A DNA stretch of 64,000 bases. Source: Actinomycetospora chibensis. Lineage in GTDB: Bacteria; Actinomycetota; Actinomycetes; Mycobacteriales; Pseudonocardiaceae. The stretch lies in assembly GCF_028737215.1 (NCBI RefSeq), contig NZ_JAQZAM010000002.1:62001-126000 (forward strand), given 5' to 3'. Below, one piece after another: positions 54,118-64,000 of this stretch. The notes beneath the pieces are model-generated. The model was not told the origin of the DNA and did not search any database. It worked only from the letters and a program-made list of their open reading frames with translations. How positions within the stretch are numbered: position 1 is the first letter of the stretch; each line of letters begins with the position of its first letter. A program made the translations under genes and the position numbers.

Positions 54118-54612
54118 CTACAGCGTCGCGGCGGGCGGCGGAGGCGGCGTCGCGCCGGCGTCGGCGTCGTCGCCTCCGGGCAGGTGCACGTCGGTGATGA
54201 CGATGTTGAGCTCGACGACGGTGACGCCGGCGATCTCCTCGACGGCCTTCGGCACGTGGCGGCGCAGCGCGCGGACGAGCTCGCGGGCCCCGACGCCGTA
54301 CTCGATCTCGACGTCCAGCCCGATCCGGGCCGTCTGGTTCTCGAGCTCGACGCGGACGCCTGCGGTGTTCTCGGTGCTGCCCGTGAGCGTCTGGCGCACG
54401 GCCCCGACGGCGCGGGAGGAGCTGGCTCCGAGCGCGACGACCCCGGGGATCTCACGGGCGGAGAACGCCGTCACCTTCTGGACGACCGAGGGGAGCACCT
54501 CGGTGGTGCCGTCGACGGCGGTCGGATCGCCGACGGCGCCGGCGCCGCCGACCGACGTGGCCGTCGGGGTGGGGCTGGAGGGGGTGCTGCTCGGACGCTC
54601 GGCGCTGGTCAT
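54118..54612 (-). CDS. Asp23/Gls24 family protein
   Basis: The 164-residue protein has a Ser/Thr/Pro-rich N terminus and the Asp23/Gls24 domain: 'VVQKVTAFSAREIPGVVALG', 'ARIGLDVEIEYGVGARELVRALRRHVPKAVEEIAGVTVVELNIVITDVHLPG'-type order. The family forms membrane- or envelope-associated complexes linked to stress. The ATG at 54612 is preferred to 54672. It lies 65 bases after gvpK on the same strand and is probably the last gene of the gas vesicle operon. The Ala/Pro-rich tail is short. Confidence 0.8.
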   Translation of the reverse strand: MTSAERPSSTPSSPTPTATSVGGAGAVGDPTAVDGTTEVLPSVVQKVTAFSAREIPGVVALGASSSRAVGAVRQTLTGSTENTAGVRVELENQTARIGLDVEIEYGVGARELVRALRRHVPKAVEEIAGVTVVELNIVITDVHLPGGDDADAGATPPPPPAATL

Positions 54613-54677
54613 GTGCCCCGAGTACCCCGCCTCGTCCCGGCGGAGTCCGATCCCGTGCGCACGATCGGGCACCGCGG

Positions 54678-54965
54678 TCAGCGGTCGCGGGGCAGGAGCG
54701 GGCCCAGCGGTCCGAGATCCAGGTTGAGGTCGTCCGCCGTGAGCCCGAACTGCTCGGTGAGCTCGTCCATCGCCTCCGCCAGCAGCATCAGTGAGGTGCC
54801 GAGGTCCTCCTCCTGCTGCTCGGTGAGGTCCCCCTGGTCGACGCGCCGGATCGCCTGTCGCTCCATGAGCTGGCGCAGCAGCTCGACGATCGTGAGCACC
54901 AGCTTCATGAGATCTCGGCGGACCGCGTCCTTGTCGATCTCGATGCGGTTCGCCCGCTCACTCAT
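54678..54965 (-). CDS. gvpK: Gas vesicle protein GvpK
   Basis: The 95-residue protein matches GvpK: 'RIEIDKDAVRRDLMKLVLTIVELLRQLMERQAIRRVDQGDLTEQQEEDLGTSLMLLAEAMDEL' in order, ending in 'FGLTADDLNLDLGPLGPLL'. GvpK is required for gas vesicle formation in other organisms, probably in assembly. Its ATG lies 8 bases inside the end of the gvpS-type gene. Confidence 0.95.
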   Translation of the reverse strand: MSERANRIEIDKDAVRRDLMKLVLTIVELLRQLMERQAIRRVDQGDLTEQQEEDLGTSLMLLAEAMDELTEQFGLTADDLNLDLGPLGPLLPRDR

Positions 54966-55266
54966 CGCCCAGCTCCAGCTCCCGGGCCGTCAGGGCCTTC
55001 GGCGCGGCGGCCCCGTTCCGCGGCGTGTCGCCACGTTCGGCCCGCTCCGCGAGCGTGCCCTGCCGCTCCACCGGCGCGATCGACATGACGAGGGCGCGGA
55101 GCGAGATGCGCACGAGGTCGACCCCGGCGAGCGAGATCGTCAGGTCGCCGACGAGCACGACGCCGCCGGCGAGCAGCCGGTCGAGCAGGTCGACCAGGGC
55201 GACCTCCTCGTTCCCGAACAGCGACGTCGCCCGTGGCTCGAGCTCTCCCGAGGACGGGCCCGTCAC
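54958..55266 (-). CDS. gvpS: GvpA/J-family protein (gvpS position)
   Basis: The 102-residue protein has the short GvpA-type core 'VALVDLLDRLLAGGVVLVGDLTISLAGVDLVRISLRALVMS', with two helices around the beta hairpin. The C terminus is a charged tail. It is a minor wall or nucleation paralogue. In Streptomyces the gene between gvpL and gvpK is called gvpS; I use this name from position. The GTG overlaps the gvpL stop by 4 bases. Confidence 0.85.
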   Translation of the reverse strand: MTGPSSGELEPRATSLFGNEEVALVDLLDRLLAGGVVLVGDLTISLAGVDLVRISLRALVMSIAPVERQGTLAERAERGDTPRNGAAAPKALTARELELGDE

Positions 55267-56045
55267 GGCGCCGATCCCCCTGAGGAGGAGGTGGCGGCGG
55301 CGGCGAAGGAGTAGGGGACCCAGGGCCCGGTGAGCTCGACCCGCACCTTCGGGTGGTCCTGGTAGGAGGCGACGACGGCGCGGAGCTCGTCGACCCGCTC
55401 GACCGGCAGCAGGTAGGCCTGGTTGAGGACCATCGGGTCGGTCTGCCCGGACAGCTGGGCGTCCTGGAGCCGGTGGCTCTTCACAGCCGCGGCGAGGGCC
55501 GAGACGGCCGCGTCCACCTCGTCCGCGGCCCGTCGGGCGTCCTCGAGCGTCGTGTCGCCCTCGCGCAGGGCCTTCCGTCGCCGGCGGAGGTAGTCCGCAC
55601 CCGACTTCGGCTTCTCGGCCTCCGCCTCGGCCGCGGCCGGGCTCCCCTTGCGGGCGTAGACCTTGAGGCCCCACTCGGCGCGTCCGGCGAGGCGGTCGAG
55701 CACCGCGGAGAAGGTCTCGGCGCTCTCGTCGAGCACGGCCCGCACCCGCTCGTCGTCGAAGTACACCGTCGCCAGCCCGAGCGGCGCCACGAGGTGGTCG
55801 CGTCCGAGGGTGTCGACGACGTGGTGGTGCGCCCGGGCGGTCGCGGCCAGCCACTCGAGGTCCTCGAGGCGCTCCTCGAGCGCCCGTTCCTGGAACTCGG
55901 CGCGGTCGGCGTCGCTCACCACGGCCGTCACGCCGCGGTGCTCGACGGTCCGGACGGGCCGTCCTCCGAGCCCCTCGAGCCCCGCGACGGCGGCGGGGTC
56001 GACCTCGCGGGCGACGGCGTAGACGTAGGTCAGCGTGTCACTCAT
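55263..56045 (-). CDS. gvpL: Gas vesicle protein GvpL (GvpF/L family)
   Basis: The 260-residue protein has the two-domain GvpF/L layout: 'TYVYAVAREVDPAAVAGLEGL', 'AATARAHHHVVDTLGRDHLVAPLGLATVYFDDERVRAVL', and a C-terminal 'QAYLLPVERVDELRAVVASYQDHPKVRVELTGPWVPYSF'. These proteins bind GvpA and help nucleate or extend the wall. A Lys/Arg/Ala-rich insert lies at about 125-165. The ATG overlaps the gvpJ stop by 4 bases. Its position after gvpJ follows the Streptomyces order. Confidence 0.92.
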   Translation of the reverse strand: MSDTLTYVYAVAREVDPAAVAGLEGLGGRPVRTVEHRGVTAVVSDADRAEFQERALEERLEDLEWLAATARAHHHVVDTLGRDHLVAPLGLATVYFDDERVRAVLDESAETFSAVLDRLAGRAEWGLKVYARKGSPAAAEAEAEKPKSGADYLRRRRKALREGDTTLEDARRAADEVDAAVSALAAAVKSHRLQDAQLSGQTDPMVLNQAYLLPVERVDELRAVVASYQDHPKVRVELTGPWVPYSFAAAATSSSGGSAP

Positions 56046-56599
56046 TCCTCCGCCTTCCGACGTCGGCGCGGAGCGGCCTTCCCCCCGCCGCCCTGTCGCG
56101 CCGTCTGCTTCGACCGCCGCGCGGGCTGGGGTTCGGGTTCCTCGGTGTCGTCGACGATCTCGGCGTCGACCAGCTCGTCCTCGTCGTCGGCCTCGTCGTC
56201 CACGCCCTCGAGGTCCTCGGGCTCCTCGTCACCCTCGAGGGCCGCCTGCCCGTTGCGGCCCTCCAGGGCCTCGAGGCGCTCCTTCAGCCGGCGGTTCTCC
56301 TGTTCGAGCTCGCTGTGTCCCGAGGAGAGGGTGGGGTCGCGCTCCCACCAGTCGATGCCCATCTCCTTGGCGCGGTCGACGGACGCCACGATGAGCCGGA
56401 GCTTGATCGTCAGCAGCTCGATGTCGAGCAGGTTGATCTGGACGTCGCCGGCGATGACGATGCCCTTGTCGAGGACCCGCTCGAGGATGTCGGCGAGGTT
56501 CGTGCCGTCGCCGCCACCGCCCTGGGCGGCCGGCTGGCGGCCGCCGGCCTGGTTCGGGGCGGACGGCATCTGCCCTGTCCAGCGCACCGGGTCACTCAT
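56042..56599 (-). CDS. gvpJ: Gas vesicle protein GvpJ with long charged tail
   Basis: The 185-residue protein has a GvpA-type core at about 32-80: 'LADILERVLDKGIVIAGDVQINLLDIELLTIKLRLIVASVDRAKEMGIDWWE'. A coiled coil follows ('ELEQENRRLKERLEALEG', about 97-114), then an acidic stretch of about 45 residues and a basic end ('RRSKQTARQ', 'PRRRRKAEE'). GvpJ caps or nucleates the vesicle. The tail roughly doubles the usual charge-rich end. The ATG at 56599 follows GAGGGAG by 5 bases. Confidence 0.92.
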   Translation of the reverse strand: MSDPVRWTGQMPSAPNQAGGRQPAAQGGGGDGTNLADILERVLDKGIVIAGDVQINLLDIELLTIKLRLIVASVDRAKEMGIDWWERDPTLSSGHSELEQENRRLKERLEALEGRNGQAALEGDEEPEDLEGVDDEADDEDELVDAEIVDDTEEPEPQPARRSKQTARQGGGGKAAPRRRRKAEE

Positions 56600-56638
56600 G
56601 GTCACTCCCTCTCGTGTCCCCCGGCTCGCGTCGGGCCG

Positions 56639-57754
56639 TCACTCGTCGTCGCCGCGACCCCGTGTGTAGCGCTTCAGCCGTTTGTAGCTGATCAGCTCGC
56701 CGTCCTCGTCCATCTCGGCCTCGTAGATCGCCAGGATGTCGGTCGACTCGGGGATGCGGTGGCTCTCCACCACCTCCAGACCCACGACGTAACCCTCGTC
56801 GGTGCGGCGCACCGAGGTGATCGACTCGCTCTCCTTACCGCTCATCTCCATCACCTGCTCCGCAGCGAAGCGAGCGATCTTGCGAGCGGGGATGGGCTTC
56901 TTGGGCGCCGGCTCGGGGTCCGGTTCGGGCTCGGATTCCTCGACGCTGTCCGGCTCCTCGACGCCCTCGGGCTCGTCGAGGTCCTCGGCGTCGTCGGCGT
57001 CGTCGACCTCGTCCAGGTCCTCGGGCTCGTCGGCCTCGTCGACGTCGTCGGCGTCGTCGGCGTCGTCGACCTCGTCCAGGTCCTCCGGCTCGTCGATCTC
57101 CTCCGGCTCGGCCGCGTCCTCGCTGGTGTCCTCCGCGCGGCGGCGGCGGGGCCGTTCCTGCTCGCTCTCCGAACGGCGCCGGCGGCGCGGACGCTCCTCG
57201 CCCCCACCGGAGTCCGTCGGGGCCTCGTCGGCGGCGGGCCGGCGTCGACGACGGGGTCGTTCCTGGTCCGGGGCCGAGTCGCCGTCCTCCTCTGTCCGGC
57301 GCCGACGGCGCGGGCGCTCGTCGTCCGATCCGGCGGTGCCGTTCCCGGCGTCGGACGTCCGGCGCCGCTTCGGGCGCTCCTCGTCCGAACCGCTCGACGA
57401 CTCCGACGTCCGACGCCGCTTCGGGCGCTCCTCATCCGAACCGCTCGACGACTCCGAGGTCCGACGACGTCGCGGCCGGTCGCCCTCCGCCTCGCCCTCC
57501 GAACGACGTCGCCGGCGTGGACGCTCCTCGTCCGAGCCGGACGCGGTCTCGGACGTGCGGCGCCGACGGCGCGGCTTCTCCTCGCCCGAAGAGTCCGAGG
57601 ACTCCGAAGGGGTCGGGTCCCCGTTCGACCGGCGTCGTTCGGGCGCGTCCTCTCCGGATTCCCCGGACGCCGCCGACCGTCGGCGGCGGGGCCGCTCCTG
57701 ATCGGTGACGCGCGGGGCGTCGTCGTCCTCGGTGACGTCGGCGGACCGCGTCAC
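56639..57754 (-). CDS. gvpO: GvpO with giant low-complexity N-terminal region
   Basis: The last 85 or so residues are a GvpO domain: 'ARKIARFAAEQVMEMSGKESESITSVRRTDEGYVVGLEVVESHRIPESTDILAIYEAEMDEDGELISYKRLKRYTRG' in order. GvpO usually has about 100-150 residues; this one has 371. Residues 20-206 hold ten blocks of the type ERPRRRR, separated by Ser/Asp/Glu-rich spacers. Residues 210-285 are almost wholly acidic with a repeated DEPEDLDEVDDADDA. One 17-residue unit (99-115) is repeated exactly at 116-132. GvpO is needed for gas vesicle production in several species. The GTG overlaps the gvpG stop by 4 bases. Confidence 0.93.
   Translation of the reverse strand: MTRSADVTEDDDAPRVTDQERPRRRRSAASGESGEDAPERRRSNGDPTPSESSDSSGEEKPRRRRRTSETASGSDEERPRRRRRSEGEAEGDRPRRRRTSESSSGSDEERPKRRRTSESSSGSDEERPKRRRTSDAGNGTAGSDDERPRRRRRTEEDGDSAPDQERPRRRRRPAADEAPTDSGGGEERPRRRRRSESEQERPRRRRAEDTSEDAAEPEEIDEPEDLDEVDDADDADDVDEADEPEDLDEVDDADDAEDLDEPEGVEEPDSVEESEPEPDPEPAPKKPIPARKIARFAAEQVMEMSGKESESITSVRRTDEGYVVGLEVVESHRIPESTDILAIYEAEMDEDGELISYKRLKRYTRGRGDDE
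56987..57094. repeat. Duplicated acidic repeat in gvpO
   Basis: The residues DEPEDLDEVDDADDA occur at 221-235 and 242-256 of GvpO. The DNA is built from repeats of GTCGTCGGC-type triplets, prone to slippage. Confidence 0.6.
57359..57460. repeat. Two exact-protein 51-base tandem repeats in gvpO
   Basis: Two adjacent 51-base units encode the same 17 residues, TSESSSGSDEERPKRRR, with only two or three base differences visible between them. They are probably a recent duplication. Confidence 0.7.
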
Positions 57755-57984
57755 GTGCCACCCCCGCCCACGAGGCGCTGCAGCAGGACAGTCTGCTGCT
57801 CGTCCCGTTCGTCCTCGCTGATCTCACCGCGGTCGAACGCGGCGTCCAGCTCGTCGATCTGCGCACGGATGACGCCGGGGTCGTTCATCTGGTGGTCGAC
57901 CTGGTCGGCGATCTTCTCGCCGACCCAGGCCACCCCGCGGACCGGGGCGAGGGGCAGGAGCAGCAACTCGGTGAAGAAACCCAC
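57751..57984 (-). CDS. gvpG: Gas vesicle protein GvpG
   Basis: The 77-residue protein is a clear GvpG: 'GFFTELLLLPLAPVRGVAWVGEKIADQVDHQ', then 'IDELDAAFDRGEISEDERDEQQ'. It is a small helical assembly factor found next to gvpF. The GTG at 57984 aligns with the family start. GAGGG lies 10 bases upstream. The stop overlaps the gvpO start. Confidence 0.93.
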   Translation of the reverse strand: MGFFTELLLLPLAPVRGVAWVGEKIADQVDHQMNDPGVIRAQIDELDAAFDRGEISEDERDEQQTVLLQRLVGGGGT

Positions 57985-57997
57985 GATGCGCCGGCCC

Positions 57998-58804
57998 TCA
58001 GGCCTGGGCCTCGGGGGGCGCTTCGAACTCGGGCAGGAAGTCGAAGGCCGCCGTGGGCCCGATGAGCCGCAGCTCGACCCGTCCCGCCCAGGCGTTGCCC
58101 AGGTCGTCGACGGCCTGCTCGAAATCGTCACGCCCGTCGGTCTTGACGAGGAACGCGAGGTGCACGGCCCCGTTCTCGCCGCCCGCCTCCTTCACCTCGG
58201 TCGCCACCGCGAACTTCGAGAGCGCGTCGACCGTGGCCTGCGCGTCCTCCTGCCGCAGCTGGTCCATCGCCTTCGAGATCGACTCGCCGAGCTGGATGCG
58301 GTCGTAGTAGCTCGCGTCCTCGTCGACCCCGGCGATCTTCTCCCGCAGCTGCTGGATGCGGGGATCGGACTCGACGATGCGGGTGAGGATGACGTCCTGG
58401 TTGTAATCGCCGCGCAGCCGGAACTCGAGATGGCCGCGGAGCTGATCGAGCGCGCGCAGGAAGTAGTCCTGGTGCGGCTTCAGCAGCTCCTCGGCGACCG
58501 CGTCGTCGTCGGTGACGACCGCCCCGAAACGCATCGGGAGGACGGGCACCTCCTGCGCGATCGCGTTGAGGACGGCCTCGTGCGCCATCAGGTCGCGCCG
58601 GGTGCCCAGGGGTCGGTCGGCGGAGACGTCGCTGACGACGGCCGCCAGCCCGCCCTCGGTGACGAGACCCAGCTCGCCGTCCTCGTCACCGTGCGGGATC
58701 GGCTCGAGCCCGTCGGGGATGCGCATCCCCGCCGGGACGATGCCGTAGATGTAGGACCCGCGGGTCGTGCTCCGGGACTTGGTGGAGTCCTCCGTCGTGG
58801 TCAC
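57998..58804 (-). CDS. gvpF: Gas vesicle protein GvpF (GvpF/L family)
   Basis: The 268-residue protein has 'GSYIYGIVPAGMRIPDGLEPI', 'MAHEAVLNAIAQEVPVLPMRFGAVVTDDDAVAEELLKPHQDYF' and 'GAVHLAFLVKTDGRDDFEQAVDDLGNAWAGRVELRLIGPTAAFDFL' in order, typical of GvpF. GvpF contacts GvpA and may prevent premature assembly. It lies 10 bases after gvpA and 13 bases before gvpG. Confidence 0.94.
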   Translation of the reverse strand: MTTTEDSTKSRSTTRGSYIYGIVPAGMRIPDGLEPIPHGDEDGELGLVTEGGLAAVVSDVSADRPLGTRRDLMAHEAVLNAIAQEVPVLPMRFGAVVTDDDAVAEELLKPHQDYFLRALDQLRGHLEFRLRGDYNQDVILTRIVESDPRIQQLREKIAGVDEDASYYDRIQLGESISKAMDQLRQEDAQATVDALSKFAVATEVKEAGGENGAVHLAFLVKTDGRDDFEQAVDDLGNAWAGRVELRLIGPTAAFDFLPEFEAPPEAQA

Positions 58805-58814
58805 CTCGGCCCCC

Positions 58815-59198
58815 TCATGCCTTCTCGCGCTTGCTCTGCTGGCGCTCGCCGCGGACCTCGTCCCACTTCTCCTTGCCGGCGTCGAGCACCCCCTTGGTCT
58901 TGCCCTTCGCGCCGCCCTCGGTGGCGCCCTCGGTGAGGCCGCCCATGAACTCCCCGAGGTCCTTGCCACCCTTCTGATGCAGGTCGAGGCGGTTCGTGGC
59001 CTCGGCGAACTTCAGATAGGTGTCGACACTGGCCACGACGATCCGGGCGTCGATGGTGATCAGCTCGATGCCGACCAGCGACACCTTGACGAACGCATCG
59101 ATGACGAGGCCCTTGTCGAGGATGAGATCGAGGACCTCGGCGAGCCCGCCCTGGGGCGCCTTCTGGACGCCGCCGCCCGATTGCTGGCTGATCGTCAC
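58815..59198 (-). CDS. gvpA: Major gas vesicle shell protein GvpA
   Basis: GvpA builds the hollow ribbed shell. The 127-residue protein has the near-invariant core '[55 protein letters not shown]' at about 19-73, which fits the helix-strand-strand-helix shell unit. A longer tail than usual (to 127) is Gly/Lys/Glu-rich. A 17-base-pair hairpin sits 29 bases upstream. The GTG start has GGGAGGA at 11 bases, which is a long spacing. Confidence 0.96.
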
Positions 59199-59281: not shown

Positions 59282-60553
59282 TCAGGCCGGGGTGCGCTGA
59301 CGTCGCGAGCGACGACGCGGGCGGTCGTCCTCCTCGGCGGGGGCGTCCTCCGCGGCCTCGTCCTCGGCGTCCTCCGGGAGGTCGTCGTCGACGTCCTCCT
59401 CGGCCTCGTCCTCGAGTTCGTCCTCGAGCTCGTCCTCGTCCGCCTCGTCCTCGAGCTCGTCGAGGTCCTCGTCGGCGTCCTCGTCCTCGTCCTCGGCCAC
59501 GAGGTCGTCGTCGACGTCCTCGTCCTCGTCCTCGTCGAGGTCGTCCTCGGCGAGCTCGCCCTCCTCGGAGTCCTCGAGCTCCTCGTCCTCCTCGGCCGCC
59601 CGCTGCTCCTCCTCGAGGGCTTCCTCGTGGGTCTTGACGACCTCGCTGTCGCGGATCTCGCCGCGCCAGCCCTCGAGTTCCTCACGGTTGATCAGCGTGT
59701 CCATCATGACGTGACGGCAGAAGTGCTTGAACTCCAGCCGGGCGCGACGCCCGACCGCACGCCAGAGGTTCCCCGTCTTCTCGAAGAAGCCCTGCGGGTA
59801 GTACTCCATGATCAGGACGATGCGCGTCAGGTTCGGCGCGAGTTCACTGAACGTCACGATCCCGTCCGCAGAACCCTTGGCCCCCGACGACACCCACAGA
59901 ATGTGGCTATCGGGGACCTGTTCGCGGATAGTCGTCTCCCAGGAACGACGCGACCAGAACACCTTCGCGGTCCAGACGACCTTCTCGTCGGACTCCTGAT
60001 TGACCGTCTCGACCTTCTTCATGAAGCTCGGGAAGTCGGCCATCTGGGTCCACTGGTCGTAAGCCACGCGCAGCGGGACCCCGACGTCCTGGACCTCGTA
60101 GATGTTCATGAACTTGAACTTGCCGCGGCCGGTGCTGTTCCCACCGCCACCACCGCCGCCGCTGCCGTCCTCGTCGCCCTCGTCGTCGTCGTCTCCGCCG
60201 CCGAGACCGACCGCCCCCAGCGCCTTGTCCTTCACCGTCGAGAGACCGCTCTTGATCGCTCCGCCGATGCCGCCGCCCGACGAGTCGTCGTCATCGCCCG
60301 ACCCACCGCCGAACGCGGCACCGAGGTTGCCCGGGTTCCCGGCGACGTCGGTGAGCTTGCCGGTCAGCCCCTCGACCTGGTCGAGAGCGGCGTTGACCGC
60401 CTTGTCGGTGGCCGCCTTCAGCAGCGTCTGAGCCGCCTGCTTGAGACGGTCGACGGGCAGCACGTCGGTGATCGACGAGCCGGACCCGCTGTCGTCGTCG
60501 TGCGGGAGCTGGCCGTTGGAAGCCGCCCGCGGATCGGTCGTGGTCTCAGTCAT
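59282..60553 (-). CDS. SRPBCC-domain gas vesicle cluster protein (gvpZ position) with acidic tail
   Basis: The 423-residue protein has a Gly/Asp-rich N terminus (1-145) and an SRPBCC helix-grip domain at about 146-295 ('MNIYEVQDVGVPLRVAYDQWTQMADFPSFMKKVETV', 'VWTAKVFWSRRSWETTI', 'LTRIVLIMEYYPQGF'). An almost pure Asp/Glu stretch runs from 315 to 410, ending in the basic RPRRRSRRQRTPA. SRPBCC genes are a regular part of actinomycete gvp clusters, where I believe the slot is called gvpZ. The role is unknown. Its ATG overlaps the upstream stop by 8 bases. Confidence 0.82.
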   Translation of the reverse strand: MTETTTDPRAASNGQLPHDDDSGSGSSITDVLPVDRLKQAAQTLLKAATDKAVNAALDQVEGLTGKLTDVAGNPGNLGAAFGGGSGDDDDSSGGGIGGAIKSGLSTVKDKALGAVGLGGGDDDDEGDEDGSGGGGGGGNSTGRGKFKFMNIYEVQDVGVPLRVAYDQWTQMADFPSFMKKVETVNQESDEKVVWTAKVFWSRRSWETTIREQVPDSHILWVSSGAKGSADGIVTFSELAPNLTRIVLIMEYYPQGFFEKTGNLWRAVGRRARLEFKHFCRHVMMDTLINREELEGWRGEIRDSEVVKTHEEALEEEQRAAEEDEELEDSEEGELAEDDLDEDEDEDVDDDLVAEDEDEDADEDLDELEDEADEDELEDELEDEAEEDVDDDLPEDAEDEAAEDAPAEEDDRPRRRSRRQRTPA

Positions 60554-61463
60554 CGCGCTTCCCCGATCCACGGCGCGAGCCCGAGCCGGCCGTGGCCTTG
60601 CTGCGCGACCCCGACGACGTCCGACGCGTCGAGCCGTTGCTGGTGCGGTTCGAGCTGTCGTCGGACGACGAGCCCGACGACGAACGCTTGCGACGCTCCT
60701 GGCCGGTGTCGCTGCTGGTCGAGCCACTGCTCGACGAGCTGCTCTTCGACGCCGACGGGGGCCGTGAGGCACGACGGCGCGACGAGGCCCGCGCGGGGGC
60801 CTCCTCGGCCTCCTCGGCCTCGTCGGCCTCCTCAGTCTCGGCCACGGCCTCGTCCGACTCGGACTCCTCCGTGTCGTCGACCTCGTCGTCGAGGTCCTCG
60901 ACGTCCTCGGTCTCGTCGGCGGCGTCCACGCCGTCGTCGACCGGCTCCTCGGCGGCAGCCGCCTTGCGACGACGTCCACCGCGCGCGGCCCTGCCGACCG
61001 CGCCGCCGGCACCGCCGACCGCGCCACCGACCGCCGACCCGGCCGACCCGGCCACGTCGCCGACAGCGCCACCGGCCTGGCCGACGGCGTCGCCGGCGGC
61101 ACCCGCGGTCTGACCGGCGGCCTGCGTCGCCGCACCCGCCGCGTCCGCGGCCGGCTTGCCGAGGTTCTCGACCCGGTTGACCAGGTTGTCGGTGAGAGCC
61201 TCCATGCGCGAGCTCGCGACGGCCAGCGCCGCGTCCTTGCCCGCCTCGAGCAGCCGACCCCGCACCGCACTGTCGAGCTTCTGGAGCTCCGGTGACGCCT
61301 GGATCAACTTCGAGGCCTGCCCCAGCAGCTGGGCGGGATCGGTGGAGATCTTCTTCCCGGCCAGCGCAGCGCCGAACATGATGGCGAGCTTCATCTTCTT
61401 CGTACGACCGAGTAGATAGCCGCCGATGACCGCGAGGGCCAATTTCAGGCCGGTTCCGGGCAC
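60546..61463 (-). CDS. Gas vesicle cluster protein (gvpY position) with charged tail
   Basis: The 305-residue protein starts with a short hydrophobic segment ('LKLALAVIGGYLLGR', about 6-20) and a basic turn ('TKKMKLAIMFGAALAGKK'). A helical part to about 105 follows, then Gly/Ala repeats (105-160), an acidic stretch (173-222) and a Ser/Arg/Lys-rich end. Similar proteins open actinomycete gvp clusters, sometimes mislabelled DNA primase. The function is unknown. The GTG at 61463 has GGAGG 6 bases upstream. It is the first gene of the operon. Confidence 0.78.
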   Translation of the reverse strand: MPGTGLKLALAVIGGYLLGRTKKMKLAIMFGAALAGKKISTDPAQLLGQASKLIQASPELQKLDSAVRGRLLEAGKDAALAVASSRMEALTDNLVNRVENLGKPAADAAGAATQAAGQTAGAAGDAVGQAGGAVGDVAGSAGSAVGGAVGGAGGAVGRAARGGRRRKAAAAEEPVDDGVDAADETEDVEDLDDEVDDTEESESDEAVAETEEADEAEEAEEAPARASSRRRASRPPSASKSSSSSSGSTSSDTGQERRKRSSSGSSSDDSSNRTSNGSTRRTSSGSRSKATAGSGSRRGSGKRDD

Positions 61464-61908
61464 CGTGCACCTCCGAATGGATTGGTCCGCCTGTGCGGTG
61501 GACCACGGCCCGCCGCCTACGGAGCCGGACATTACATCGCGTGCTTCCGGAATGCGCTAGACCGGTAAGATCAAATTCGCGGTGGGCCGTTCGACCCAAT
61601 TAGTGATCACCAGAGCACGAAGGGTGATCGCGCATTCGGGTGTCGTTCTCGTGCTTCAAGCATCTGCGTCCGTTCGCTCATTCTGAATGGGCGTACGTCG
61701 GGGAGTGCTCGGCCGAATGCGTGGAGTGAGTGTGCGGCGCCGCGATCACCAAGGGTCATGTCGAACGCCATTTCGTTGACGCTCGGCGGTGATTTGGATC
61801 ATACGGGTGTTCTGCCACCGCCGCCAGCTCTCGGCGGTTGGGCAGCACAGCCCAACGTCGTACCGCTCGATGCGCCGGGGTGTTGCTCCGGCCCCGGACG
61901 CGCCGAGG
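61464..61908. other. Gas vesicle operon control region, 445 bases
   Basis: This gap is clearly less GC-rich than the rest. It holds no convincing gene. GAATGCG occurs at 61550-61556, 61714-61720 and inverted at 61632-61638. GTGATC occurs at 61603 (as the palindrome GTGATCAC), 61624 and inverted at 61744-61749. A perfect CATTC-T-GAATG lies at 61679-61689. A likely -10 for the operon is at 61529-61534. Confidence 0.55.
61529..61557 (-). promoter_or_regulatory. Putative gvp promoter: TAATGT with GCGCATTC at -35
   Basis: TAATGT on the minus strand (61529-61534) lies 65 bases before the first gvp start. GCGCATTC (61550-61557) stands where a -35 would be, and the same word recurs in the region. 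It may be an activator site or a special sigma element. Confidence 0.4.
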
Positions 61909-62616
61909 TCAGCCCTCGTCGGCGGCGTCCAGCACCCGGTCCACCGCGCGCCGCACTGATCGCCACGCCCGCACGCGCGCACGGGCGATCCGCGTGCCCA
62001 GCTCGGTCAGACGGTAACGCCGCCGATCGGTGTCGGTCCCGAGCTCGACGAGACCGTGCCGGGCGAGGTGATGGAGGGTCTTCTGAATCGTGGTGGGAGG
62101 TGGGGCGAGGCCGCCCCCGCTGTCCGCCCGTAGCCGCTCCGCGAGCTCCCGCCCGTTGGCCGGGCCGCGACGCAACGTGACCAGCACCAACAGCTCGACG
62201 TGCTCCTGGGAGGCCATCCGGACCGAGCCCCACCGCCGGTTGGCGGTCCCGGCGGTGGCGCCCGAGGCGGGCGCCGGGCGGCGTGCGCCGCGGGGGGCGG
62301 GTGCGGCCGATGGGACGTCGTTGGGTGCGGGCGCCGGGGCGACCTCGATCGGCGTGTCGGAGCCGGACTCCGCCCCGGTGACCTCGTCGGGCGCGGGGGT
62401 CCGCACGGTGAGGGGCACGACGGCGGCGCGGCGCGCGCCCTGCGCCGGGATCTCAGGCGAACCCGTGCCGGTACCCTCGGCCGCGTCCTGCTCGGAGCTC
62501 CGCCGGGGCCGCGGGGGCAGGAGTCCGCGCAGGCTCGCCGTGGCCGACCGCCCGAACGCGTCGCTGAGGTCGGGCGGCTGCTCGTCGTCGCTGGTCATCC
62601 GGAAGTCGGCGGTCAC
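61909..62616 (-). CDS. Winged-helix (PadR-like) protein with disordered N terminus
   Basis: The 235-residue protein has a Pro/Ala/Ser-rich region of about 130 residues and a C-terminal winged helix: 'MASQEHVELLVLVTLRRGPANGRELAERLRADSGGGLAPPPTTIQKTLHHLARHGLVELGTDTDRRRYRLTELG' in order. The fold is PadR-like, but the family name is tentative. It may bind DNA as the gvp regulator or as the partner of the ParA protein. The GTG has GGAGG 7 bases upstream and overlaps the parA stop by 4 bases. Confidence 0.7.
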   Translation of the reverse strand: MTADFRMTSDDEQPPDLSDAFGRSATASLRGLLPPRPRRSSEQDAAEGTGTGSPEIPAQGARRAAVVPLTVRTPAPDEVTGAESGSDTPIEVAPAPAPNDVPSAAPAPRGARRPAPASGATAGTANRRWGSVRMASQEHVELLVLVTLRRGPANGRELAERLRADSGGGLAPPPTTIQKTLHHLARHGLVELGTDTDRRRYRLTELGTRIARARVRAWRSVRRAVDRVLDAADEG

Positions 62617-63698
62617 GAGGTGGCCTCCTGCTCGGGGCGGTGGTCCGCGGTCGTGGTCTCCTCGGCGGCACGCAGGAGGGTCAGGAGCTCGACCCCGAGG
62701 TCGCGGTAGTCACCCGCCACGCTTGCGGCGGTCGGGGACAGGCGACGCCCGGACGAGGTCTTCGAGGTCCCCTCCCGCAGGGCCGCCCACCACGCGGGCT
62801 GCGCGGCCACCTCCTGCTCGAGCTCGTGGGCGAGCCGGCCGAGGCGCCGGGCGTCCTGTGCGGTGCGCTCCGCGTGGCGGATCGAGGTGGTGAACAGCGG
62901 CGACTGGCCGCCGAAGGCGCGCTCCATCGCCTCGCGGAGCTCGGCGTGCACGACGCGCGAGCGCGAACCGGTGGCGAAGAGCACGGCACCGAGCAGGCCG
63001 AGGTCGGGGTTCTGCTCGCGGGCGAGTGCGAAGCGCTCCCCGACCAGGCGCATGCCGACCAGGCCGCCGCCGTCCGACTTCGTGGGCATGAGCACCCACC
63101 GGGCGGCGGTGAGCGCGAGGTCGGTGAGGATCGTCGTCTCGGGCGGGCAGTCGACGAAGACGAGGTCGTAGTCGCCCGCCACCGGCGCGAGCACGGTCGC
63201 GAGGGCACGGAACGCCTCCCGCCCCTGCTCCTGCACCCGGGACACCATCAGCGGCACGAGGTCCACGAGGCGGGCGCCGCCGGGCACCACGTCGAGGCCG
63301 GGGCGGACACCCTCGGCCGGGCGCAGCGGCGAGCCGGCCACGATGCTCATGAGCAGGCCCGCGCCGTGGTCGTCGATCGGCCCGTCGCGGAACCCGAGGT
63401 CGTCGGCGAGGTTCGCCTGGCGGTTGAGGTCGACGAGCAGGCACCGGTACCCGGCCGCGGCGAACTGCCCGGCGAGGTTGGCGACGAGCGAGGTCTTCCC
63501 GACACCGCCCTTGTCGTTGACCATCGCGATCGTCCGCGTCAGCGCGTCCATGTCCGGGTCCGTGGTGGCCGCCGCGTCGTCGACTCCGACCACGACGGGC
63601 GTCGGCGCCCCCGTGCGGTCACCGCCCGCGCGGTCCCTCCCCGCGCCTCTGCGGCGGCGGGTGGCGTTGCGGGCGGCGCGGCCCGCCGGTCCGGTCAT
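62613..63698 (-). CDS. ParA/MinD-family ATPase
   Basis: The domain has 'IAMVNDKGGVGKTSLVANLAGQF' (deviant Walker A with the signature Lys), 'YRCLLVDLNRQANLADDLGF' (switch I region, DLNRQ in place of the usual DxDPQ) and 'GDYDLVFVDCPPETTILTDLAL' (Walker B). Such ATPases move or space plasmids, chromosomes and protein cargos along DNA or membrane. The start is uncertain: the ATG at 63698 gives 361 residues with an Arg-rich N terminus; the ATG at 63551 gives the core only. Upstream of 63698 the codon use is poor. The gene is followed by its wHTH partner with a 4-base overlap. Confidence 0.85.
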   Translation of the reverse strand: MTGPAGRAARNATRRRRGAGRDRAGGDRTGAPTPVVVGVDDAAATTDPDMDALTRTIAMVNDKGGVGKTSLVANLAGQFAAAGYRCLLVDLNRQANLADDLGFRDGPIDDHGAGLLMSIVAGSPLRPAEGVRPGLDVVPGGARLVDLVPLMVSRVQEQGREAFRALATVLAPVAGDYDLVFVDCPPETTILTDLALTAARWVLMPTKSDGGGLVGMRLVGERFALAREQNPDLGLLGAVLFATGSRSRVVHAELREAMERAFGGQSPLFTTSIRHAERTAQDARRLGRLAHELEQEVAAQPAWWAALREGTSKTSSGRRLSPTAASVAGDYRDLGVELLTLLRAAEETTTADHRPEQEATS

Positions 63699-63824: not shown

Positions 63825-64000
63825 TCACGCGTCGCGTTCGCGGGTGTCGTCCTCGTAGACGTCGGGCACGTTGTCGTGGTCGGTGTCGACCCGCTCTCGC
63901 TCGTGGATCCGCCGGTGCACCCCGTTGCGGTGCCGCAGCACGACCGTGGCGAGCACGGCGGCGAGCAGCGAGGCGGTCAGGACCCCGATCTTCACGTGGT
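63825..64000 (-). CDS. nhaA: Na+/H+ antiporter NhaA, C-terminal end (5' end outside window)
   Basis: The last 57 residues are in frame to the right edge: 'KIGVLTASLLAAVLATVVL' is the final helix, then 'RHRNGVHRRIHERERVDTDHDNVPDVYEDDTRERDA'. The helix and the Asp-rich DxDxDxVPDVY tail resemble the C terminus of actinobacterial NhaA proteins, which exchange sodium for protons. The rest of the gene lies to the right of the window. The call rests only on this end. Confidence 0.65.
   Translation of the reverse strand, partial: HVKIGVLTASLLAAVLATVVLRHRNGVHRRIHERERVDTDHDNVPDVYEDDTRERDA

Follow-up and report, generated by a model that had tools for sequence, protein, structure and literature searches.

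The closest described relatives of the locus analysed here are actinobacterial plasmid pairs of a ParA with an RHH-type partner, as found on the Pseudonocardia plasmids pLS1-1, pLS2-1, pFRP1-2 and pPA12743CP and on Natronoglycomyces p1. These plasmid ParAs are 52–62% identical to the ParA of our window (the whole 64,000-nucleotide stretch of Actinomycetospora chibensis DNA under study), share its VDLN(R/K)Q Walker A' motif and are usually encoded in an overlapping operon. Their partners have the same DLxxxFG-type N-terminus and long disordered linker as the window partner, here called B, but end in an RHH-like domain where B has a PadR domain; the pairs are also plasmid-borne, have no gvp genes nearby and lack the third protein, X, that is discussed below.

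The ParA-AspA-ParB system of the Sulfolobus plasmid pNOB8 is likewise a ParA system with a dedicated partner protein, AspA, which is winged-helix and PadR-like. AspA is a centromere-binding protein (PMC9178275). However, pNOB8 carries a three-protein archaeal plasmid system, and AspA is not among the solved-structure matches found for B. McdA/McdB, which positions carboxysomes, resembles the window pair in that an ATPase of ParA type works with an adaptor that is small and for the most part disordered, and in that the genes lie beside those of a protein organelle. No close sequence kinship was noted, and the C-terminal end of the window adaptor has a DNA-binding-type fold. McdB has an invariant C-terminal tryptophan (PMC13052382); B ends in DRVLDAADEG and has its last Trp at residue 218, so the McdB-type tryptophan is absent.

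Two other families touch on parts of the locus. Genes for P-loop ATPases of the ArsA family sit among gas vesicle genes (PMC2963123), and these ArsA-type proteins of other gvp clusters were, apart from unrelated papers, all that we found in the literature when looking for ParA with gvp. The ArsA/Get3-family proteins differ from the window protein in being ~600 aa long, occurring in other phyla and having no adaptor; an ArsA-type assignment is ruled out by profiles, which identify the window protein as a ParA. PadR/LmrR regulators share their fold with the C-terminal 100 aa of B, but in B this part follows a disordered N-terminus of 130 aa that bears a conserved basic motif, and B is translationally coupled to parA. 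Gas vesicles go unmentioned in a 2025 review of how bacteria position their organelles, and we found no paper linking ParA to gvp in a searched literature that falls short of most subscription journals, where absence is not proof. Gas-vesicle distribution and inheritance appear to be uncharted.

Anatomy of the parA-B pair and the adjoining gvp cluster

The parA gene (62613–63698, minus strand, start at 63698) encodes a 361-aa ATPase with a basic N-terminal extension and a Pfam AAA_31 match (E 2e-24); its start, ATGACCGGACCGGCGGGCCGC, is kept in 8/8 nhaA-linked Actinomycetospora loci compared. The deviant Walker A KGGVGKT, with its signature lysine, is invariant across the subfamily alignment. 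The Walker A' motif, VDLNRQAN, has Asn in place of the usual ParA Asp and departs from the canonical DxDPQ, so we call the ATPase ParA-type because its profile kinship is clear and not by this motif. Asn-Arg (VDLNRQ) characterizes the whole subfamily, including its plasmid members, whereas chromosomal ParAs of the same genus have Asp-Pro (VDFDPQ); the same exchange is seen in plasmid homologues L075–L080. The Walker A' Asp (Asp40 of Soj) is required for ATP hydrolysis. An ordinary chromosomal Soj/ParB pair is ruled out, as those are separate genes with ~35% identity, and in most cases an scpA-like gene comes next.

The adaptor gene B (61909–62616, minus strand, GTG start, 235 aa) overlaps parA by 4 bp and, like parA, is codirectional with gvp; both genes are real and lie where a first-pass annotation of this DNA had placed them. 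Its description of B as disordered and PadR-like is borne out as well. The protein consists of an N-terminal motif, a disordered linker (residues ~1–130 are disordered) and a PadR-type winged helix predicted confidently by AlphaFold at residues ~135–235 (pLDDT >90). Its last 100 residues match Pfam PadR (E 1e-7, 32 bits against a cut-off of 27), and the closest solved folds found by Foldseek are PadR (9qbc, E 7e-6) and LmrR. Both the PadR winged helix and a long C-terminal dimerisation-type helix are present (residues 135–235; 61912–62214, minus strand).

Residues 16–39 of B, DLSDAFGRSATASLRGLLPPRPRR (62500–62571, minus strand), carry a motif common to many RHH-type partition partners, and we propose DLSDAFGRSATASLRGLLPPRPRR as the putative ParA-contact segment. 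A parA gene followed by a small partner gene with an N-terminal motif, the type Ib-like arrangement of plasmid partition pairs, recurs with its 4-bp overlap in almost every locus, whether the partner is of PadR or RHH type, and this shared N-terminal segment may be what interacts with ParA. Apparent damage to B was seen in KRD291, where its N-terminus is missing (L103, 6353–6739), and in CNS-004, where it is frameshifted (L100, 10945–11561); in both, ParA is largely intact, and the damage is either assembly error or decay.

Downstream of the pair, and codirectional with it on the minus strand, the gvp cluster runs gvpT(P)-SRPBCC-gvpA-F/L-G-O-J-F/L-S-K. It comprises a gvpT/P-like gene whose product has an acidic and then a basic tail (60546–61463), an SRPBCC (polyketide cyclase-like) accessory gene (59282–60553), gvpA (58815–59198), gvpF/L (57998–58804), gvpG (57751–57984), gvpO with a long charged tail (56639–57754), a gvpJ-type gene (56042–56605) and a gvpS-type gene (54958–55266), both with the Gas_vesicle domain, and a second gvpF/L (55263–56045). 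The gene at 54678–54965 we take to be gvpK from its position in the cluster; the gene after it (54118–54672) has a weak Asp23/AmaP-like match.

B and gvpT are separated by 445 bp (61464–61908), and position 61464, which had been given as the boundary of the pair, is the edge of gvpT and not of B. This region is poorly conserved except nearest gvpT, where the nhaA-linked Actinomycetospora clade shares the block TTTGATCTT(A/C)CCGGTCTAGCGC (61554–61575, minus strand), a candidate gvp promoter element or B operator. The conserved stretch just before gvpT suggests that gvp probably has, and is transcribed from, its own promoter. Thus, of the earlier statement that the pair is directly upstream of gvp, the adjacency stands, while cotranscription does not necessarily follow across a gap of this length containing a conserved block. 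No copy of the block was found before gvp in those pair-less clusters that were searched, or upstream of parA, and folding of the stretch ahead of gvpT showed nothing out of the ordinary. As had been reported, there is no parS-like repeat array, either in these 445 bp downstream of the pair or in ~300 bp upstream of it; only scattered (G)GTGATC half-sites occur.

Distribution of the pair and linkage to gas vesicle genes

All 18 Actinomycetospora genomes have gvp genes, and the orthologue of the window ParA with its PadR-type partner is present in 11 of them. One (G014) has two copies of the pair in an assembly too fragmented to judge gvp linkage. In 9/18 genomes the pair borders the main gvp cluster at its gvpT (SRPBCC) end. 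In the window, nhaA lies immediately upstream of parA on the same strand (63825 to past the window end, with its 3' part at 63825–64000) and is a neighbour outside the system. The nhaA-SlpD neighbourhood is common to one Actinomycetospora subclade only, and nhaA is beside the pair neither in G005 or G009 nor in any Pseudonocardia locus; an nhaA-linked operon, raised at the outset as the competing neighbourhood, is rejected on this basis. G005 has different flanking genes and no nhaA, yet its parA-B still adjoins gvp. G009 has a separate parA-B-gvpA operon with 4-bp overlaps at both junctions (L041, 8608–10561), and its main gvp cluster (L042) is without the pair.

Five of the 18 Actinomycetospora genomes have gvp but no close ParA, and G008 and G017 have only a different, mobile-element-type ParA. 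With 22 Pseudonocardia genomes, these seven make up the genomes that have gvp without the PadR-type pair. Because so many gvp-containing genomes lack it, the pair is accessory to gas vesicles. At the G008 (L039, 1–8139) and G017 (L046, 5058–9894) loci the ParAs are degraded or of RHH type and stand next to transposase-like integrases that are nearly identical to each other. Further neighbours are shared as well, which points to a mobile element as the carrier of ParA modules. Actinomycetospora genomes also contain one more gvpA that stands alone, at a distance from the gvp cluster (L006, 9498–9842, and nine equivalent loci), usually accompanied by a 96-aa unknown gene, inositol-phosphatase-like, glutamine-synthetase-like and helicase-like genes and often a sigma-70 factor.

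When 85,000 species genomes were scanned with an alignment of this ParA, it matched Actinomycetospora proteins at 75–98% identity, Pseudonocardia proteins mostly at 70–73% and a more distant set. The 70–73% identical Pseudonocardia ParAs also have a PadR-type partner, except in P. kunmingensis, from which B is gone. Among 62 Pseudonocardia genomes, 18 have the PadR-type ParA and 39 have gvpA genes. The survey of co-occurrence proposed in the first-pass annotation shows that gvp is present in 17/18 genomes with this ParA versus 22/44 without it (Fisher p=0.001). The sole gvp-less carrier is an incomplete 5.3-Mb metagenome bin (L110), and the anticipated counter-observation, a pair conserved without gvp, is limited to it. 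After phylogenetic correction the co-occurrence is only modestly significant (Pagel-type likelihood test on an rpoB tree, p=0.04), and as the test uses a single-gene tree with poorly constrained rates, the support it gives is modest.

Physical linkage to gvp is stronger support than the tree-corrected co-occurrence. In six Pseudonocardia genomes parA is within 3.5 kb of gvp genes, in several arrangements: upstream and codirectional (G189), downstream and codirectional with X present (G192), convergent behind gvpK (G202, G165 and G163) and beside a lone gvpA (P. dioxanivorans). On a rough reckoning, the probability of such closeness arising by chance is well below 1% for each genome of 7 Mb. 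These six ParAs are scattered across the ParA tree, and shared ancestry accounts for some of the gvp-linked cases but not for the differing arrangements. In ~10/18 parA-containing Pseudonocardia genomes the module is far from gvp. G163 is the only parA-containing genome, and one of two gvp-containing genomes, in its rpoB group; because it alone has both in a nearly gvp-negative and otherwise parA-negative group, it suggests that parA and gvp were acquired together.

Plasmid kinship, protein X and the LRxLL motif

Outside the two-genus set, the closest ParAs are those of Pseudonocardia plasmids and mobile elements (52–65% identity), so the earlier statement that no partition locus is evident needs revision: plasmid partition pairs are the nearest outside kin. 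In almost all of these plasmid-type relatives the partner starts around the parA stop codon and has the N-terminal DLxxxFG motif, often followed by LxGLLPPRxR, with a C-terminus that appears RHH-like instead of PadR. In the ParA tree, whose deeper branching is weakly supported, the ParAs with PadR-type partners form two clades, one of Actinomycetospora (99/98) and one of Pseudonocardia (99/97), and RHH-type ParAs fall outside each. The module is descended from, or sister to, plasmid partition pairs, and the comparison of RHH-like with PadR ends shows that the C-terminal domain of the partner has been replaced in the PadR-type pairs. The plasmid counterparts of B are probably DNA-binding centromere proteins.

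Most Pseudonocardia loci encode a third protein, the acidic X, just upstream of parA (e.g., L100, 9001–9813; L105, 8384–9784; L109, 8748–9926). The N-terminal 35 residues of X are conserved (ISGYIMLGxKKLxIxI) and lead into a very long run of Asp and Glu, then an LRxLLxPRxRR motif and a basic tail; X does not match any Pfam family. It occurs in 14/62 Pseudonocardia genomes, of which 14/14 have this ParA and 14/14 have gvp (p=0.001); in G164, X and parA are on separate short contigs, where adjacency cannot show. By eye only, and with no claim made, the X N-terminus vaguely resembles GvpA or GvpT strands. We considered whether X might belong, unrecognised, to the gvp cluster of Actinomycetospora and rejected this, as no profile match was found in the window or in the Actinomycetospora loci examined.

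The LRxLL motif is distributed reciprocally between X and B. In loci with X the motif is in X and is absent from the paired B, or B is lost; in loci without X it is in the B of Actinomycetospora and of two gvp-adjacent Pseudonocardia loci (L101 and L147). The other Pseudonocardia loci without X are KRD291, with its N-terminally incomplete B, and the gvp-less bin, which has neither X nor the motif. P. kunmingensis retains X-ParA and has lost B. This pattern, found post hoc, is consistent with a portable module, which would most simply be a hook that activates ParA; both ParB and ParG are known to activate ParA through an N-terminal arginine finger (PMC9178275).

Proposed explanations: vesicle positioning, gvp regulation and others

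Our best explanation, held tentatively at a shade under an even chance, is that a plasmid-type ParA/adaptor partition module was recruited by gas-vesicle loci, had the far end of its adaptor re-aimed and acts on the vesicles; we propose that recruitment occurred in the shared ancestry of Actinomycetospora and Pseudonocardia. ParA-ATP dimers would coat the nucleoid, and an arginine-rich adaptor hook, carried by B as DLSxAFG...LRGLLPPRPRR or, in most Pseudonocardia, by X as LRxLLxPRxRR, would engage ParA and stimulate ATP hydrolysis. The far end of the adaptor, which would be the PadR domain in B and a short hairpin-like N-terminus plus acidic tail in X, would join the gas-vesicle cargo or its assembly site. 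The resulting ParA gradients would spread the vesicles and share them among daughters or spores. Against this reading weigh the DNA-binding-type fold of B, the distance of the module from gvp in ~10/18 Pseudonocardia genomes, the 22 Pseudonocardia and seven Actinomycetospora genomes with gvp and no PadR-type pair, the gvp-less bin, the modest tree-corrected p value and the apparent damage to B in KRD291 and CNS-004. The vesicle-positioning role suggested in the first-pass annotation is thus supported as to the gas-vesicle association, because the pair tracks gvp and nhaA linkage is confined to one subclade, while positioning itself is what we infer from it. That this is the first ParA-driven system for gas-vesicle positioning and inheritance, in which a DNA-binding domain was swapped and the hook later moved onto an acidic cargo protein, X, in Pseudonocardia, is possible, at well short of an even chance.

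The main rival, which we consider unlikely, would make B a transcription regulator of PadR type that represses or activates gvp as well as its own operon, while ParA adjusts how B binds DNA; no vesicle cargo would be involved. Regulation is a live alternative because B retains a DNA-binding-type fold, that of PadR/LmrR, and DNA may still be its ligand, given this fold and the probable DNA binding of its plasmid counterparts. Plasmid ParA/adaptor pairs autoregulate. That the pair precedes gvp on the same strand in Actinomycetospora and G189 fits this role, as do the GTGATC half-sites and the conserved block before gvpT that is missing from the pair-less clusters searched; that block, however, is not seen upstream of parA, and PadR regulators normally need neither a ParA nor a ParA-hook segment. 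In Pseudonocardia the module often lies behind gvp, converges on it or is remote from it, and in P. kunmingensis X-ParA has outlasted B. These non-regulatory positions and the loss of B speak against regulation alone as the explanation.

A relic of DNA partition, a cassette acting on a chromosomal centromere-like site or doing little and lying near gvp through shared island mobility, seems to us quite improbable. It would account for the close kinship with plasmid and mobile-element ParAs, the G008 copy, whose 17-kb contig also carries a transposase-like integrase, and the degraded B of a few genomes, and the joint acquisition in G163 could be an island transfer. Against it, the pair is kept intact across both genera with a changed partner domain and lies beside gvp in several differing arrangements; moreover, a parS-like array is absent, and in G009 gvpA is translationally joined to B. 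Very improbable is that ParA, X and B position another cargo, e.g., spore or polarity material in strains that also have vesicles: the distance of the module from gvp in many Pseudonocardia and the lack of a recognisable domain in X would allow it, but gvp linkage is repeated and extends to a parA-B-gvpA operon, and no other neighbour recurs across both genera.

The pair, apparently re-equipped and retained beside gas-vesicle genes by two related genera of soil bacteria, is a good candidate for the first known machine that positions or regulates these organelles. Recruitment of a partition module to gas vesicles, if true, would provide a genetically compact handle on their distribution and inheritance. 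If this hypothesis is correct, the module would be an apparent case of a partition motor re-aimed through a change of adaptor toward a protein organelle instead of DNA, and it may offer a possible tool for placing the engineered gas vesicles used in ultrasound imaging.
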